From an uncultured delta proteobacterium (GTDB lineage: Bacteria > Myxococcota > Myxococcia > Myxococcales > 40CM-4-68-19), in NCBI GenBank assembly GCA_903911145.1, contig CAIWCD010000002.1:1-64000 (forward strand): DNA of 64,000 nt, given 5' to 3'. Below the pieces are notes generated by a model that had not been told where the DNA came from, ran no database searches, and saw nothing but the letters and a program-made list of their open reading frames with translations. This document shows, in pieces, positions 2-6,532 of this stretch; the first letter of the stretch is position 1; the number at the start of each line of letters is the position of its first letter. The position numbers were made by a program, and so were the translations under genes.

Positions 2-3000
2 GTCACGGCCAGGCACACGATCAAGGCGACCTTCACGCTCCAGACGTTTGCGATCACCACCTCGATGGATGGCAACGGCACCGGCACAATCTCGCCGACG
101 TCACCGACGGTGAACTACGGCGCGGACCAGGCGTTCACCATCACGGCTGCCGCCGGCTCGACGCTCACCGCAGTCACGGTCGATGGCTCGGCCGCCGCGG
201 TCGCGAGCCCGTACACGTTCCACACCGTCACCGCGACACACACGATCAAGGCGACCTTCACGCTCCAGACGTTTGCAATCACGACGTCGATGGACGGAAC
301 CGGCGCCGGCACAATCTCGCCGACGTCACCGGCGGTGAACTACGGCGCGGACCAGGCCTTCACCATCACGGCGAACGCCAACTCGACGCTCACTGCAGTC
401 ACGGTCGACGGCTCGGCGGCCGCTGTCGCGAGTCCGTACACGTTCCACACCGTCACCGCCACGCACACCATCAAGGCGACCTTCACGCTCAAGACGTTTG
501 CGATCACGACGTCGATGGATGGCAACGGCAGCGGCACCATCTCGCCAACCTCGCCGACGGTGAACTACGGCGCGGACCAGGCGTTCACCATCACGCCGGC
601 CACGGGCTCGACGCTCACTGCAGTCACAGTCGACGGCTCGGCCGCCGCTGTCGCGAGTCCGTACACGTTCCACACCGTCACCGCCACGCACACCATCAAG
701 GCGACCTTCACGCTCCAGACGTTCGCGATCACGACATCGATGGACGGCAACGGCAGCGGCACCATCTCGCCGACGTCGCCGACGGTGAACTACGGCGCAG
801 ACCAGGCGTTCACCATCACGGCGGCCACGGGCTCGACGCTCACCGCAGTCACGGTCGACGGCTCGGCCGCCGCTGTCGCGAGTCCGTACACGTTCCACAC
901 CGTCACCGCCACGCACACCATCAAGGCGACCTTCACGCTCCAGACGTTCAACATCACGTCCTCGGTCGACGGGACCGGCAACGGCACCGGCACGATCTCG
1001 CCCTCGGGCGTGACGAGCGTGAACTACGACGCGAGCCAGACGTTCAACTTCTCGCCCGCGAGCAGTTCCGTGGTCAGCGCGGTCACCGTCGACGGCAGCC
1101 CGGTCGCTCTTGCGGCCAGCTACTCGTTCAACAACGTCAGGGCGACGCACACCATCTCCGTGAAGTTCGCGCTCAAGACGTTCACCATCACGGCCTCTGC
1201 TGGCCCGCACGGGAGCATCTCGCCGCCGGGCGCGACGAGCGTGAACGATGGCAGCAGCCAGACCTTCACGATCACGCCGGCGAGCGGCTACATGGTCAAC
1301 GACGTGACCGTCGACAACGCGTCGGTCGGCGCCGTGACGACGTACACGTTCACCAACGTCACCGCGACGCACACCATCTCGGTGACGTTCGTGATCCAGA
1401 CGTTCACGATCACGCCCTCGAGCGACGGCACGGGCAGCGGGACGATCGCGCCCGGAACACAGCAGACGGTCAGCTCGGGCGGCAGCCAGCAGTTCACCAT
1501 TTCGCCCGCGGCCAACTCGACGTTCAGCGCGCTGGCCGTCGATGGCAGCGCCGTCACCGTGCAGAGCCCGTACACGTTCAGCAACGTCACGGCCTCGCAC
1601 ACCATCAAGGCCACGTTCACCAAGAAGACCTTCACGCTGACGCCGTCGATCGATGGCACGGGCAACGGCACCGGCACGGTCTCGCCCGCGACGGCGCAGA
1701 CGGTGAACTACGGCGACAACCAGACCTTCACGTTCACGCCTGACGCCAGCTCGACGGTCAGCGCGGTCACGATGGACGGCTCGCCGGTTGCCACTGCGAA
1801 CTCGTACCCGTTCACCAACGTCACCGGCTCGCACACCATCTCGGTGAAGTTCGCGCTCAAGACGTTCGCCATCACCGTCTCGGCGGGCACCAACGGAACC
1901 ATCACGCCCGGCACGACGCAGACGGTGAACTACGGCGCATCCCAGTCGTTCACCATCGCGGCCAGCAGCGGCTATCACATCGTCGACGTGCTCGTGGATG
2001 GCTCCTCTGCAGGCGCGATCACGAGCTACAGCTTCACCAACGTCACGGGCACGCACAGCATCAGCGCGACGTTCGCCATCACCTGCGCGAGCGACAGCGA
2101 CTGCTCGTCGGGCAACTACTGCGACACGACGCTCACGCCGCACGCCTGCGTGCCGAAGAAGGACACGGGCGCCTGCACCGCGAACGACCAGTGCTCGAGC
2201 AACGCCTGCACCGATGGCGTCTGCTGCAACCGGGCCTGCAACGGCCAGTGCGAGGCGTGCGATGTCCAGGGGCACAGCGGCACCTGCACCACGCTGACGA
2301 GCGGAGAGCCGCACGGGGCGCGGACGAGCTGCACCGGCAACGGAACGCTCTGCGGTGGAAGCTGCACCGGCGCGAGCGCGACGGCCTGCACCTATCCCGG
2401 CTCGGGCACGCAGTGCATCGCGGCCTCGTGCACCAACGGCGTCGCCACTTCCGAGGCGGGCTGCGCAGGAGACGGAACCTGCCCCGCGATCACCACCAAC
2501 TCGTGCGGCACCTATACCTGCGAGGCGGACGGCGGCACCGCCTGCAACAGCGCCTGCACGAGCGACACCGACTGCTCGACGGGCAACTGGTGCAACGGAA
2601 GCAACAAGTGCGTTCCCAAGGAGCCGAACAGCCCGGCCAACACCTGCACCGCGAACGACCAGTGCGTAAGCGGCCACTGCACCGACGGCTTCTGCTGCGA
2701 CACCGCGTGCAACGGCCAGTGCCAGGCGTGCGACGTTGCGGGCAGCGAGGGAACCTGCTCGCCGACGCCTGCGAACGGCGCCCCTCACGGCATCCGCGCG
2801 GCCTGCGCAACCGACGGCAGCGACTGCGGCGGCGCCTGCGACGGAACGCGCGTGCTCGCCTGCGCCTATCCGGGCAGCGACACGCAGTGCCGCGGCGCCT
2901 CGTGCGCGGCGGGAACGGCGACGCTGGCAGCGGGCTGCAACGGCGCGGGTGCTTGCCCGAGCGTGCAGACCGAAACCTGCTCTCCGTACGTCTGCGGAGC

Positions 3001-6000
3001 GAACGCCTGCACGGGCAATTGCCACAGCGACACCGACTGCGTCTCGGGCGACTGGTGCTCAGGCGGCGTCTGCGTGCCCAAGCTCAATCCGGGCCAACTC
3101 TGCTCGGCGACCGACCAGTGCGGCAGCGGCTTCTGCGTCGACGGGGTCTGCTGCGACACGACCTGCAACGGCCAGTGCGAGGCCTGCGCTGAGAGCGGAC
3201 ACGAGGGAACCTGCTCGCCCGTCGCGGGAGCACCGCGCGCAGGCCGCAATGCCTGCGCGACCGACGGCACCGACTGCGGCGGCGCGTGCGACGCGGTCCA
3301 CACCTCGGCGTGCGCGTATCCCGGTTCCTCGACGAGCTGCCGCGGAGCCTCGTGCACCGACGGAACGGCGATCCTCGCGGCAGGCTGCAACAGCGCCGGC
3401 GCATGCCCGCCCGAGCAGGACATCAGCTGCGGCGGCTTCGCGTGCGGCAGCACGATCTGCAACGGCGACTGCACGATCGACAGCGACTGCGCGACCGGAA
3501 ACTACTGCGCGGCCGGCATCTGCACGCCGAAGAGTGCGCCCGGCTCGGTCTGCAGCGCGGCCGATCAATGCGCGAGCGGAAACTGCGTCGACGGTGTCTG
3601 CTGCGACACGGCCTGCACCGACCAGTGCGCGGCGTGCGATGTGCCCGGACACGTCGGAACCTGCTCGCCGGTCCTCACCGGTGCGGCTCCCGAAGGCGCG
3701 CGCCAGGCCTGCGCGTCTGACGGCACCAGCTGCGGCGGCGCCTGCGACGGAACGACGACGGCCAGCTGCGCCTATCCCGACACGAGCTGCCGCGGCGCGA
3801 GCTGCACGAGCGGTGTCGCGACTCTCTCGGCTGCCTGCGATGGACACGGAAGCTGCCCGCCCGTGCAGACCCAGAGCTGCGGCGCGTTCATCTGCGGCGC
3901 GAACGCCTGCAACGGAAACTGCCAGAGCAACTCCGACTGCGCCGCGGGCAACTTCTGCTCGGCCGGCGTCTGCACCGCGACGCTCTCCAACGGCGGAGCA
4001 TGCAGCGCGGCCAGCCAGTGCACGAGCGGCTCGTGCGTCGACGGCGTCTGCTGCAACACCGCCTGCGATGGCCAGTGCGAGGCCTGCGATGTCGCCACCC
4101 ACGTCGGCACGTGCAGCGCAGTCACGGGCGATCCGCACGGCTCGCGCACGGCCTGCGCGACCGATGGAACGGCCTGCGGCGGCGCGTGCGACGGCACGAA
4201 CGCCACCGGCTGCGCCTATCCGACGAACTCGACGCAGTGCCGCGCCGCCTCCTGCGCGGACGGCGTGACGACCAGCTCCTCGAGCTGCGTCGGCACCGGC
4301 GCCTGCCCTGCTGCGTCGCAGAACACGTGCGGCATCTACGCGTGCGAAGGCACCACCTGCGCGACGAGCTGCACGAGCAACGCGGAGTGCGCAGCCGGCT
4401 CGACATGCGTCGCGCAACGCTGCGTCCTCGACGGAACCCCCGGCGTCTGGACGGTCGCGGGCTCGGGCGGCTGTGCCTCGGGCGGCGCAGGAAATCTCCT
4501 CCCTCTGCTTGGCCTCGCGATCTTCGCGCTGCTGCAGTTCATGCGGCGCAACGCGCGCAAGTCCGCGCTGGTGGCGGTCCTCCTCGTTCTCGCCGCGCCG
4601 ATGGGAGCGTTCGCGCAGTCGACCGTGCCGACCGACACGTCGCTCGTCATCGACCGCTTCCAACCCGGCGCGGGCGTCTACGACCTGCTCGGCGTCGGCT
4701 CGGCAGAGACGCCCGATCACCTCGCGTTTCATCTCTCCGCGTTCATCGACTACGCCAACCAGCCGCTGCGGCTGATCGCGAACGGCCAGCCCAGCCAGCA
4801 AGTGCTGCTGCTGCGCTACCAGTCGATGCTGTATCTCGGCGCGAGCATCGGTCTGTTCGATCGATTTGAACTCGGCTTCGTGCTGCCCACGCTGATCGCG
4901 CAGAAGTCCGGCTCGACGGAAGTGCTCGGCCCGACGTTGACGAGTGCGGGCTCTGGCGTCGGCGATATCCGTTTCGTCCCCAAGGCGAAGCTCTACGGCG
5001 GCAAGCGGCTCGTCTTCGCGGTGGCACTTCCCTTCACGCTTCCCACCGGCTCGGGCCACGCCTACCTGAGCCAGGGCCGCGCGACGTTCAGCCCCGAGCT
5101 GCGACTGGAGACGAATCAGAACTGGCTCCCGTTTCAGCTGATGGCCAATGCCGGCGTCGCTCTGCGCAACACGCGCGTGCTCGGCGATCTCAATCTCAGC
5201 AACGCCTTTACGTGGGGCGGCGCCGCGCAGGTTCCCTTCCACCTCTCGACGCAGAAGTTCGCCGCACTCGCCACGATCGCGGGCGAGCTCGGACTTTCTG
5301 TGAACCATCCGTCGGAGCGGCCGATGGAGGCGATGGGCGCCTTGCGCTGGTTCACTCCGGCGAGCGTCGATGTCACGCTCGGCGCGGGTCCCGGCATCAC
5401 CAACGGCTACGGCACGCCGCGCTTTCGCCTCTTCGGTGGGCTCGCCTACAACCCGGCCAAGGCGCAGCCCGCGGCGCCCGAGAAGCCCGCGTTCTGTCTG
5501 CTCGCGGCCGATACCTATCTGCGCACGCCGGCGGGCCAGGCGATCGATGTGCCGATCAACGCGATGGCACAGTCGGGCCAGCCGATCACGGTCTCGCGCA
5601 CTGAGCCGCCCTCGCACGGCGCGGTGCAGAAGGCCGCGAGCGGTGCGCTGCAGTACCTGCCCGCCGATGGCTACTCGGGCAAGGATGAGTTCGCGCTGAT
5701 CGTCAGCGATGGCAGCGAGCGCACCGCACGCCAGAAGGTCGTCGTCGATGTGCTCCCGCCGCCTCCGCCTCCGCCGCCCGCGCCGGTCGCAGAGCTGCCG
5801 CTGCCTCCGATGCCGATGCCCGAGCCGCTGCCGCCTCCGCCGCCTCCTCCGCCAGCAGCCAACGAGCCCGAGCGGATCATCCGCAACGGACACATCGCGC
5901 TGCTCGCGCCGGTGCAGTTCGCGGTCGACAAGGACATCATCCTGCGCAAGTCGATGCCGATCCTCGACAAGGTCGCGCAGATCCTCCGCGAGAATCCCGA

Positions 6001-6532
6001 CTACAAGAAGGTCAGCATCGAGGGCCACACCGACAGCCAGGGCGCGGCCGAGCACAACCTCGATCTCTCGCAGCGCCGCGCCAACTCGGTCATGCGCTAT
6101 CTGATCAAGGACAAGATCGACGCGGCCCGCCTTGAGGCGCATGGCTTCGGGCAGGACAAGCCGATCGAGAGCAACGCGAGCCCCAAGGGGCGCGCGCGCA
6201 ATCGTCGCGTCGAGTTCGTCGTCACCGACGGGCCGATGCCCGACACCAAGCCGAGCGCGACTCCCGCGAAGCCCGCGCCGAGCGATGCCGCGAAGCCCGC
6301 GCCGAGCGATGCCGCGAAGCCCGCGCCGAGCGATGCCGCGAAGCCCGCGCCAAGCGATTCTGCGAAGCCCGCGCCGAGCGACGCCGCGAAGCCTGCGCCG
6401 AGCGATGCTGCTGCGGCCTCGCCGAAGAAGACGCACAAGAAGCCTGCGCCGAAGACCGCGCCCGCTGATGCGTCGCAGGATCTGCCGCTCGACGCGCTTC
6501 CGTCGCTGCCTCCTCTGCCGTCGAGCAAGTAG
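2..6532 (+). CDS. Large surface/secreted protein, 5' end off window: ~75-aa InlB-B-like repeats, then Cys-rich repeats, MYXO-CTERM-like segment, second signal peptide, Pro-rich linker, OmpA C-terminal domain and KPAPSDAA repeats
   Basis: Frame is open from base 2 (VTARHTIKATFTLQTF...), so the listed Met at 65 is internal. Repeats of TVNYGADQAFTIT...TATHTIKATFTLQTF; Cys-rich units DGVCC.TAC.GQCEACD...; OmpA motif VSIEGHTDSQGAAEHNLDLSQRRANSV. Confidence 0.85.
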   Translation, partial: VTARHTIKATFTLQTFAITTSMDGNGTGTISPTSPTVNYGADQAFTITAAAGSTLTAVTVDGSAAAVASPYTFHTVTATHTIKATFTLQTFAITTSMDGTGAGTISPTSPAVNYGADQAFTITANANSTLTAVTVDGSAAAVASPYTFHTVTATHTIKATFTLKTFAITTSMDGNGSGTISPTSPTVNYGADQAFTITPATGSTLTAVTVDGSAAAVASPYTFHTVTATHTIKATFTLQTFAITTSMDGNGSGTISPTSPTVNYGADQAFTITAATGSTLTAVTVDGSAAAVASPYTFHTVTATHTIKATFTLQTFNITSSVDGTGNGTGTISPSGVTSVNYDASQTFNFSPASSSVVSAVTVDGSPVALAASYSFNNVRATHTISVKFALKTFTITASAGPHGSISPPGATSVNDGSSQTFTITPASGYMVNDVTVDNASVGAVTTYTFTNVTATHTISVTFVIQTFTITPSSDGTGSGTIAPGTQQTVSSGGSQQFTISPAANSTFSALAVDGSAVTVQSPYTFSNVTASHTIKATFTKKTFTLTPSIDGTGNGTGTVSPATAQTVNYGDNQTFTFTPDASSTVSAVTMDGSPVATANSYPFTNVTGSHTISVKFALKTFAITVSAGTNGTITPGTTQTVNYGASQSFTIAASSGYHIVDVLVDGSSAGAITSYSFTNVTGTHSISATFAITCASDSDCSSGNYCDTTLTPHACVPKKDTGACTANDQCSSNACTDGVCCNRACNGQCEACDVQGHSGTCTTLTSGEPHGARTSCTGNGTLCGGSCTGASATACTYPGSGTQCIAASCTNGVATSEAGCAGDGTCPAITTNSCGTYTCEADGGTACNSACTSDTDCSTGNWCNGSNKCVPKEPNSPANTCTANDQCVSGHCTDGFCCDTACNGQCQACDVAGSEGTCSPTPANGAPHGIRAACATDGSDCGGACDGTRVLACAYPGSDTQCRGASCAAGTATLAAGCNGAGACPSVQTETCSPYVCGANACTGNCHSDTDCVSGDWCSGGVCVPKLNPGQLCSATDQCGSGFCVDGVCCDTTCNGQCEACAESGHEGTCSPVAGAPRAGRNACATDGTDCGGACDAVHTSACAYPGSSTSCRGASCTDGTAILAAGCNSAGACPPEQDISCGGFACGSTICNGDCTIDSDCATGNYCAAGICTPKSAPGSVCSAADQCASGNCVDGVCCDTACTDQCAACDVPGHVGTCSPVLTGAAPEGARQACASDGTSCGGACDGTTTASCAYPDTSCRGASCTSGVATLSAACDGHGSCPPVQTQSCGAFICGANACNGNCQSNSDCAAGNFCSAGVCTATLSNGGACSAASQCTSGSCVDGVCCNTACDGQCEACDVATHVGTCSAVTGDPHGSRTACATDGTACGGACDGTNATGCAYPTNSTQCRAASCADGVTTSSSSCVGTGACPAASQNTCGIYACEGTTCATSCTSNAECAAGSTCVAQRCVLDGTPGVWTVAGSGGCASGGAGNLLPLLGLAIFALLQFMRRNARKSALVAVLLVLAAPMGAFAQSTVPTDTSLVIDRFQPGAGVYDLLGVGSAETPDHLAFHLSAFIDYANQPLRLIANGQPSQQVLLLRYQSMLYLGASIGLFDRFELGFVLPTLIAQKSGSTEVLGPTLTSAGSGVGDIRFVPKAKLYGGKRLVFAVALPFTLPTGSGHAYLSQGRATFSPELRLETNQNWLPFQLMANAGVALRNTRVLGDLNLSNAFTWGGAAQVPFHLSTQKFAALATIAGELGLSVNHPSERPMEAMGALRWFTPASVDVTLGAGPGITNGYGTPRFRLFGGLAYNPAKAQPAAPEKPAFCLLAADTYLRTPAGQAIDVPINAMAQSGQPITVSRTEPPSHGAVQKAASGALQYLPADGYSGKDEFALIVSDGSERTARQKVVVDVLPPPPPPPPAPVAELPLPPMPMPEPLPPPPPPPPAANEPERIIRNGHIALLAPVQFAVDKDIILRKSMPILDKVAQILRENPDYKKVSIEGHTDSQGAAEHNLDLSQRRANSVMRYLIKDKIDAARLEAHGFGQDKPIESNASPKGRARNRRVEFVVTDGPMPDTKPSATPAKPAPSDAAKPAPSDAAKPAPSDAAKPAPSDSAKPAPSDAAKPAPSDAAAASPKKTHKKPAPKTAPADASQDLPLDALPSLPPLPSSK
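65..964 (+). repeat. Tandem ~225 bp (75 aa) near-identical coding repeats, about four units, more upstream of the window
   Basis: Translated units nearly identical; antisense ORFs recur at 115/340/565/790, i.e. exactly 225 bp apart. Confidence 0.9.
2080..4430 (+). repeat. Degenerate ~190-aa Cys-rich coding repeats
   Basis: Recurring pattern SDxDCxxGxxC...DQCxSGxCxDGVCC...CxGQCxACD...GTCSP...ACxxDGxxCGGxCDG...CAYP...CRxASC. Confidence 0.8.
6268..6411 (+). repeat. 24 bp tandem repeat encoding AKPAPSDA, about six units
   Basis: gcgaagcccgcgccgagcgatgcc repeated with few substitutions. Confidence 0.85.

Follow-up and report, generated by a model that had tools for sequence, protein, structure and literature searches.

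A candidate two-product polyprotein joining a MYXO-CTERM adhesin to a TraB-like outer-membrane barrel, and its fused and split relatives in Myxococcota

Introduction

In Myxococcus xanthus, MYXO-CTERM proteins are exported through Sec and held by their helix, whose Arg tail faces the cytoplasm (PMC11980579). MrtX then cleaves them in a Cys-dependent manner, TraA included, and the type II system delivers them to the surface (PMC11980579). TraA and its partner TraB occur at a ratio of about 1:1 (PMC12045341). A still closer precedent is MXAN_5598, in which an adhesin region, an internal MYXO-CTERM, a barrel and an OmpA domain lie in one protein (Guo, Haft and Wall 2025, PMC11980579). A gene-fusion origin was considered possible for this protein, which was likened to TraA plus TraB with their overlapping ORFs; its N-terminal part was proposed to be processed and surface-anchored, its gene was found to adjoin ftsA and ftsZ, and internal MYXO-CTERM motifs were called rare (PMC11980579). 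MXAN_5598 has also been detected among vesicle proteins by mass spectrometry (PMC4158809). Because MXAN_5598 had been noted and its N-terminal processing proposed (PMC11980579), this kind of protein is already known. What is new here is the phylum-wide breadth, the alternation of fused and split forms with 4-base overlaps, the conserved predicted hairpin and the pattern of selection. Cleavage of a polyprotein by two membrane proteases is well known in viruses and unusual in bacteria. A search of the literature on bacterial polyproteins with internal signal peptides found nothing to the point.

Organization of the locus

The window, a stretch of 64,000 nucleotides, opens contig C2 of a genome of 5.3 Mb that is 99% complete. 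Its first ORF (2-6532, + strand) contains no stop through 4441-4640, where it encodes GSGGCASGGAGNLLPLLGLAIFALLQFMRRNARKSALVAVLLVLAAPMGAFAQS, and is open at its 5' end. As the window starts at a contig end, this ORF is 5'-truncated, and the gene's own N-terminal signal peptide therefore lies outside the window. The ORF comprises, in order, InlB-like repeats, five Cys-rich repeats, the junction, a barrel, Big_9, a proline linker and OmpA:

2-6532, +: candidate polyprotein ORF, 5'-truncated and beginning beyond the contig, 2176 codons in the window
2-1951, +: passenger part 1, InlB B-like repeats of about 75 aa each (translated ORF)
2174-4440, +: passenger part 2, five Cys-rich repeats of about 150 aa each (self-matches)
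4436-4558, +: internal MYXO-CTERM with Cys, helix 1 and Arg/Lys tail (TIGR03901, 22.2 bits)
4472-4474, +: invariant Cys codon of the junction (alignment)
4496-4540, +: helix 1 of the MYXO-CTERM (sequence)
4541-4564, +: predicted cytoplasmic basic loop MRRNARKS (sequence; charge conserved among fused members)
4565-4615, +: second hydrophobic stretch (4565-4612) and AFA/QS site (motif; model helices)
4616-5482, +: TraB-like outer-membrane beta-barrel with FapF/COG4313-like fold (NF033763 positions 6-300; model; fold search)
5504-5746, +: Big_9 Ig-like domain (PF17963, 34.9 bits, cut-off 23.6)
after Big_9 to about 5875, +: proline-rich linker (sequence)
5918-6205, +: OmpA peptidoglycan-binding domain (PF00691, E 2.6e-22)

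The protein sequence of the junction reads GSGGCASGGAGNLLPLLGLAIFALLQF-MRRNARKS-ALVAVLLVLAAPMGAFA/QS, the slash marking the predicted signal peptidase I cut between 4615 and 4616, with MRRNARKS forming both the tail of the first signal and the n-region of the second. Copies of the Cys-rich repeat begin near 2174, 2645, 3101, 3551 and 4001, and their match to Dickkopf_N falls under Pfam's cut-off. The tail behind the OmpA domain, at 6256-6420, repeats an AKPAPSD(A/S)-type unit six times and ends rich in Lys and Pro.

As in MXAN_5598, a large adhesin, an internal MYXO-CTERM, a barrel and OmpA thus share one frame. The passengers differ, consisting mainly of Big_13/Big_6 in MXAN_5598 and of InlB and Cys-rich repeats in the window, and so do the linkers: the MXAN_5598 linker has TSP3, whereas no TSP3 repeats were found between barrel and OmpA in the window protein, which carries Big_9 plus polyproline there. 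A further difference from MXAN_5598 is the lipobox-type N-terminus of a paralogue on contig C3 and of a frame on contig C32, both described below. Visual inspection of the ORFs at 6.5-10.5 kb, on the downstream side of the window gene, revealed neither ftsA nor ftsZ. At another locus (L130, 3560-13219) a fused gene lies between ORFs that, by eye, are FtsA-like and FtsZ-like, and this gene is an apparent orthologue of MXAN_5598. With the TraA/TraB pair, the window shares a MYXO-CTERM protein with a Cys-rich stalk followed immediately by a homologous barrel and OmpA. Unlike that pair, which consists of two ORFs with a 4-base overlap, the window has a single ORF, lacks PA14/TIGR04201 matches and scores 232 against a TraB cut-off of 700.

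The internal MYXO-CTERM signal

When tested alone, segment 4436-4558 scored 22.2 bits against TIGR03901 (curated cut-off 20) and 17.2 bits against TIGR03382 (cut-off 15.85). TIGR03901 did not report the junction inside longer pieces or in the whole-genome scan, so we regard the match as real but near the limit. Only two further MYXO-CTERM proteins were found genome-wide at the TIGR03901 threshold, few for a myxobacterium with 5.3 Mb, and the profile may overlook MYXO-CTERM variants of this lineage. The window signal resembles TIGR03901 in its Cys, helix and basic cluster and differs in being internal rather than C-terminal, with a second signal peptide behind it and an ORF that runs on for about 660 residues.

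The barrel and OmpA half

Against the TraB profile NF033763 the C-terminal half scored 231.8 bits (E 8.9e-69); this is far below the curated cut-off of 700, and the window barrel is therefore a TraB homologue and not TraB itself. An N-terminal barrel and a C-terminal OmpA domain, as in TraB, were identified by Pfam, profile and model. In the structure model, helices at 13-30 and 32-45 precede the barrel, with pLDDT low for the helices and high for the barrel. The earlier note's description of this region was confirmed: a Cys, one TM helix and a basic tail continue in frame into a Sec signal peptide (the ORF is open and TIGR03901 passes its cut-off); the basic tail of the first signal doubles as the n-region of the second, in a loop whose net charge is maintained in 71 fused members; and a barrel-like region and OmpA domain follow, on which the TraB profile, PF00691 and the model agree. 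A piece of OmpA domain was also observed within a 4191-codon open frame on another contig of this genome (L092, G000:C13:89632-89898), perhaps another giant envelope protein.

The nearest solved folds to the model, compared on the barrel alone, were FapF and the COG4313 outer-membrane channel (E 3.6e-9, TM-score about 0.5), which are alike in barrel fold and share just 11-15% sequence identity with it. Since FapF is a polypeptide transporter, this resemblance would suit a FapF-like or autotransporter-like role in which the barrel itself, and not the type II system, carries its passenger out. At this identity and TM-score the match is a distant one, however, and TraA, the characterised split relative, is delivered to the surface by the type II system, according to work cited in PMC11980579, while TraA and TraB localise independently (PMC12045341). 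We therefore consider self-export highly improbable.

The passenger and its N-terminus

On the - strand of contig C32 (L199, G000:C32:1-4412), a 1470-codon frame runs off the contig inside repeats that are 90% identical to those of the window, and C32 probably carries the N-terminal half of the window gene. On that assignment, the complete protein would exceed 3500 residues by a wide margin. The break between the window and C32 falls within InlB-type repeats. The C32 frame holds a lipobox signal, DUF11, a Pfam match to Flg_new_2 (PF18998) and a Big_1-like domain. No match to PA14 or to the TraA Cys-repeat model TIGR04201 was found in the passenger, a middle part of which may be missing at the contig break.

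The lipobox reads LLGGC at the start of the C32 frame and LNTGC in the C3 paralogue. By eye, a true lipobox is present in about 18 of 54 complete fused ORFs, most of the others having a signal of the signal peptidase I type. Fused passengers with both a lipobox and the MYXO-CTERM Cys include L033, L034, L038, L060-L062, L064 and L065, among others; it is possible that such passengers are lipid-anchored at both ends.

Integrity of the reading frame

The earlier note had allowed for a recent stop-codon loss joining two genes, or a sequencing error hiding a stop near 4560. The 4-base overlaps of split relatives lend the idea of a recent fusion, whether by stop loss, indel or assembly error, some initial appeal, since one base could join or part the frames. 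Third-position GC is nevertheless high in one single frame on both sides of the join, and the other two frames reach their first stops only at 4773 and 4867, so that a stop near 4560 could not be recovered by any single indel. The same open join is found in the C3 paralogue (2356 codons, 63% identical over the query), in frames of 2650, 1662 and 1162 codons from genomes of the same family, and in dozens of genomes, some of them complete. On the barrel tree, the window falls in a starred clade of eight rows (support 100/99), seven of them fused and the eighth truncated at a contig end. A missed stop or frameshift is thus rejected on the frame GC, the lack of alternative-frame stops before 4773 and the open relatives, and a recent fusion, which retains next to no probability, is refuted for the window's clade.

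Distribution across Myxococcota

To survey the phylum, we searched 193 of its genomes with a junction profile (A2) and counted stop-free frames of at least 1000 aa over the junction. Among the matches listed, such frames occurred in at least about 78 of the 193, and several of the genomes with a fused junction are single-contig or complete. The contig scan used an alignment of 8 rows, a 21-row version being too diverse. We collected 112 distinct barrels: 71 were fused, 13 called split and 24 alone, and a contig end truncated the other 4; the split class numbers 13 by automatic label and 11 by eye, with L186 and L072 re-set to ALONE for the tree. Fused junctions thus occupy at least 71 distinct loci in several families and classes of Myxococcota, including loci beyond the window's class (e.g. 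L219, L225, L236, L239 and L244). Named carriers are Corallococcus, Myxococcus, Pyxidicoccus, Archangium, Hyalangium, Citreicoccus and Vitiosangium. Given that 24 of the 112 barrel genes had no recognised partner, pairing of barrel and passenger is not obligatory.

Fused and split forms

Nine split pairs have a 4-base stop/start overlap (ATGA, GTGA or TTGA), with the barrel starting one base before the stop. All nine keep the order of parts seen in the fused genes and have a MYXO-CTERM-like tail at the end of the upstream gene; six are true TraAB, passing the TraB cut-off. One of the nine (L090/L201) is on contig C1 of the window's own genome, where L201 (G000:C1:17500-24500) comprises a MYXO-CTERM-type passenger of at least 1094 codons and a 639-codon barrel/OmpA frame with a GTGA overlap. 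Two Myxococcus pairs (L067 and L122) have a short gap instead of an overlap, and a same-frame stop directly follows the Arg cluster in L218, L220 and L245, which belong to other classes. The two halves, which the earlier note proposed to compare among orthologues, are separate ORFs in some relatives, as 4-base-overlap pairs, whereas dozens of genomes have fused members.

On the barrel tree, the fused label changes at least eight times by starred branches, a rough count given that the tree is midpoint-rooted and has some long rows. This indicates that joining and parting happened repeatedly. The two halves are kept adjacent, whether joined or overlapping, which argues that they cooperate functionally. 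Among Corallococcus, L041 and L121 have near-identical barrels, the one in a 3356-codon fused frame and the other in a 677-codon frame with a GRRRR-like remnant of the loop, a contrast that likely reflects a recent passenger loss.

The split relatives also bear on where translation of the barrel begins. The earlier note observed that ATG 4541 is in frame, which is correct, and could initiate a separate OmpA protein; split relatives begin at the same place, within their 4-base overlap. Were the barrel half to start independently at or near this codon, the long chain would be a minor product or be ended otherwise. Against this, ATG 4541 has no Shine-Dalgarno pairing (+1.9 kcal/mol), a test that is weak by itself because overlapping split genes lack such pairing too. 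Moreover, ATG is absent from that stretch in 29 of the 72 fused members, and 13 of 72 lack ATG, GTG and TTG alike; with no stop at the junction, ribosomes arriving from upstream yield the full chain regardless. A separate start is thus distinctly unlikely.

Conservation and selection at the junction

Across 20 aligned members, the Cys, the G at -2 and the Arg after helix 1 are invariant, and the A and Q of AxA/Q are nearly so. A Cys before a helix and basic tail is present in all 71 fused members, the motif being part of the class definition; among 137 ORFs with a long upstream part it failed in just 3, once through loop charge and twice in copies of a split pair. As a chance control, 2831 windows from other parts of these fused ORFs were searched for the Cys, helix and basic motif, and none contained it. 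Over the 16 residues after helix 1, net charge ranges from +3 to +6 in the 71 fused members; AxA lies close to its predicted position in 68 of them, and 67 match [AVSTL]xA/Q. The earlier note had named fused orthologues devoid of a conserved Cys or TM as evidence against its reading; the fused orthologues found here keep both the Cys and helix 1.

Within each of two groups of close relatives dN/dS was determined by segment; it was 0.12 and 0.22 for the Cys and TM1, 0.35-0.36 for the passenger just upstream, 0.51-0.55 for the loop and signal peptide, and 0.44-0.45 for the start of the barrel. From this pattern, the sorting signal is the most constrained element and the loop is still coding.

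Proposed processing

Taken together, these features make it likely that the product of the window gene is a polyprotein of TraA/TraB type, which is held as an inner-membrane helical hairpin and cut by myxosortase and signal peptidase I into two products. The passenger, with its Ig-like/InlB repeats and Cys-rich stalk, would enter the periplasm by its own N-terminal signal until helix 1 of the MYXO-CTERM halted transfer and left the Arg/Lys loop in the cytoplasm; the second hydrophobic stretch would then resume translocation, giving the hairpin. With one Arg/Lys segment serving both as the tail of the first signal and as the n-region of the second, an out-in-out hairpin is the only simple topology. 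Myxosortase would cut behind the Cys, which is probably lipidated, so that the adhesin would become anchored on the surface, which the passenger would reach presumably by the type II system; GspD was detected in the window genome above its cut-off. Signal peptidase I would cut at AxA/Q, freeing the barrel and OmpA for insertion into the outer membrane and binding of peptidoglycan. Departure of the barrel from the inner membrane therefore requires the signal peptidase I cut, and arrival of the passenger at the surface requires the myxosortase cut. One mRNA and one chain would supply adhesin and barrel anchor in equal amounts. Conservation supports the polyprotein cut twice that the earlier note envisaged, since fused orthologues keep the Cys, helix 1, the loop, the second stretch and mostly AxA/Q; the hairpin topology, both cuts, lipidation, the pairing of products and adhesion are inferred. 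Its "sortase-like" wording should be replaced, the enzyme in question being myxosortase, a glutamic intramembrane protease of the CPBP family (PMC11980579).

A homologue of MrtX was identified in the genome (E 1.3e-46) with EExxxR and HxxxN motifs, at 160.5 bits against a curated cut-off of 180. This shortfall, and the fact that the second cut is the one an outer-membrane barrel requires, would be compatible with cleavage by signal peptidase I alone, in which case the MYXO-CTERM helix would serve simply to stop transfer and anchor the chain, leaving the passenger bound to the inner membrane or shed. We consider this unlikely: the Cys and helix 1 form the most conserved stretch, which a mere anchor would not need, and in M. 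xanthus the cleavage of TraA by MrtX depends on Cys residues (PMC11980579). For the phylum as a whole, we favour on balance the double cut, in which two-product polyproteins with a shared-loop hairpin would be cleaved on both sides to give adhesin and anchor in equal amounts, with traAB as the split form.

Implications

Internal MYXO-CTERM motifs are common in the genomes surveyed here, as against "rare" in the published remark on MXAN_5598. The proposed processing can be tested directly in M. xanthus, for which an mrtX mutant exists. If the double cut is true, Myxococcota would use it on a large scale to produce each giant adhesin jointly with an outer-membrane anchor that matches it, and TraA/TraB kin recognition would be one branch of a broader module encoded by either one gene or two overlapping genes.
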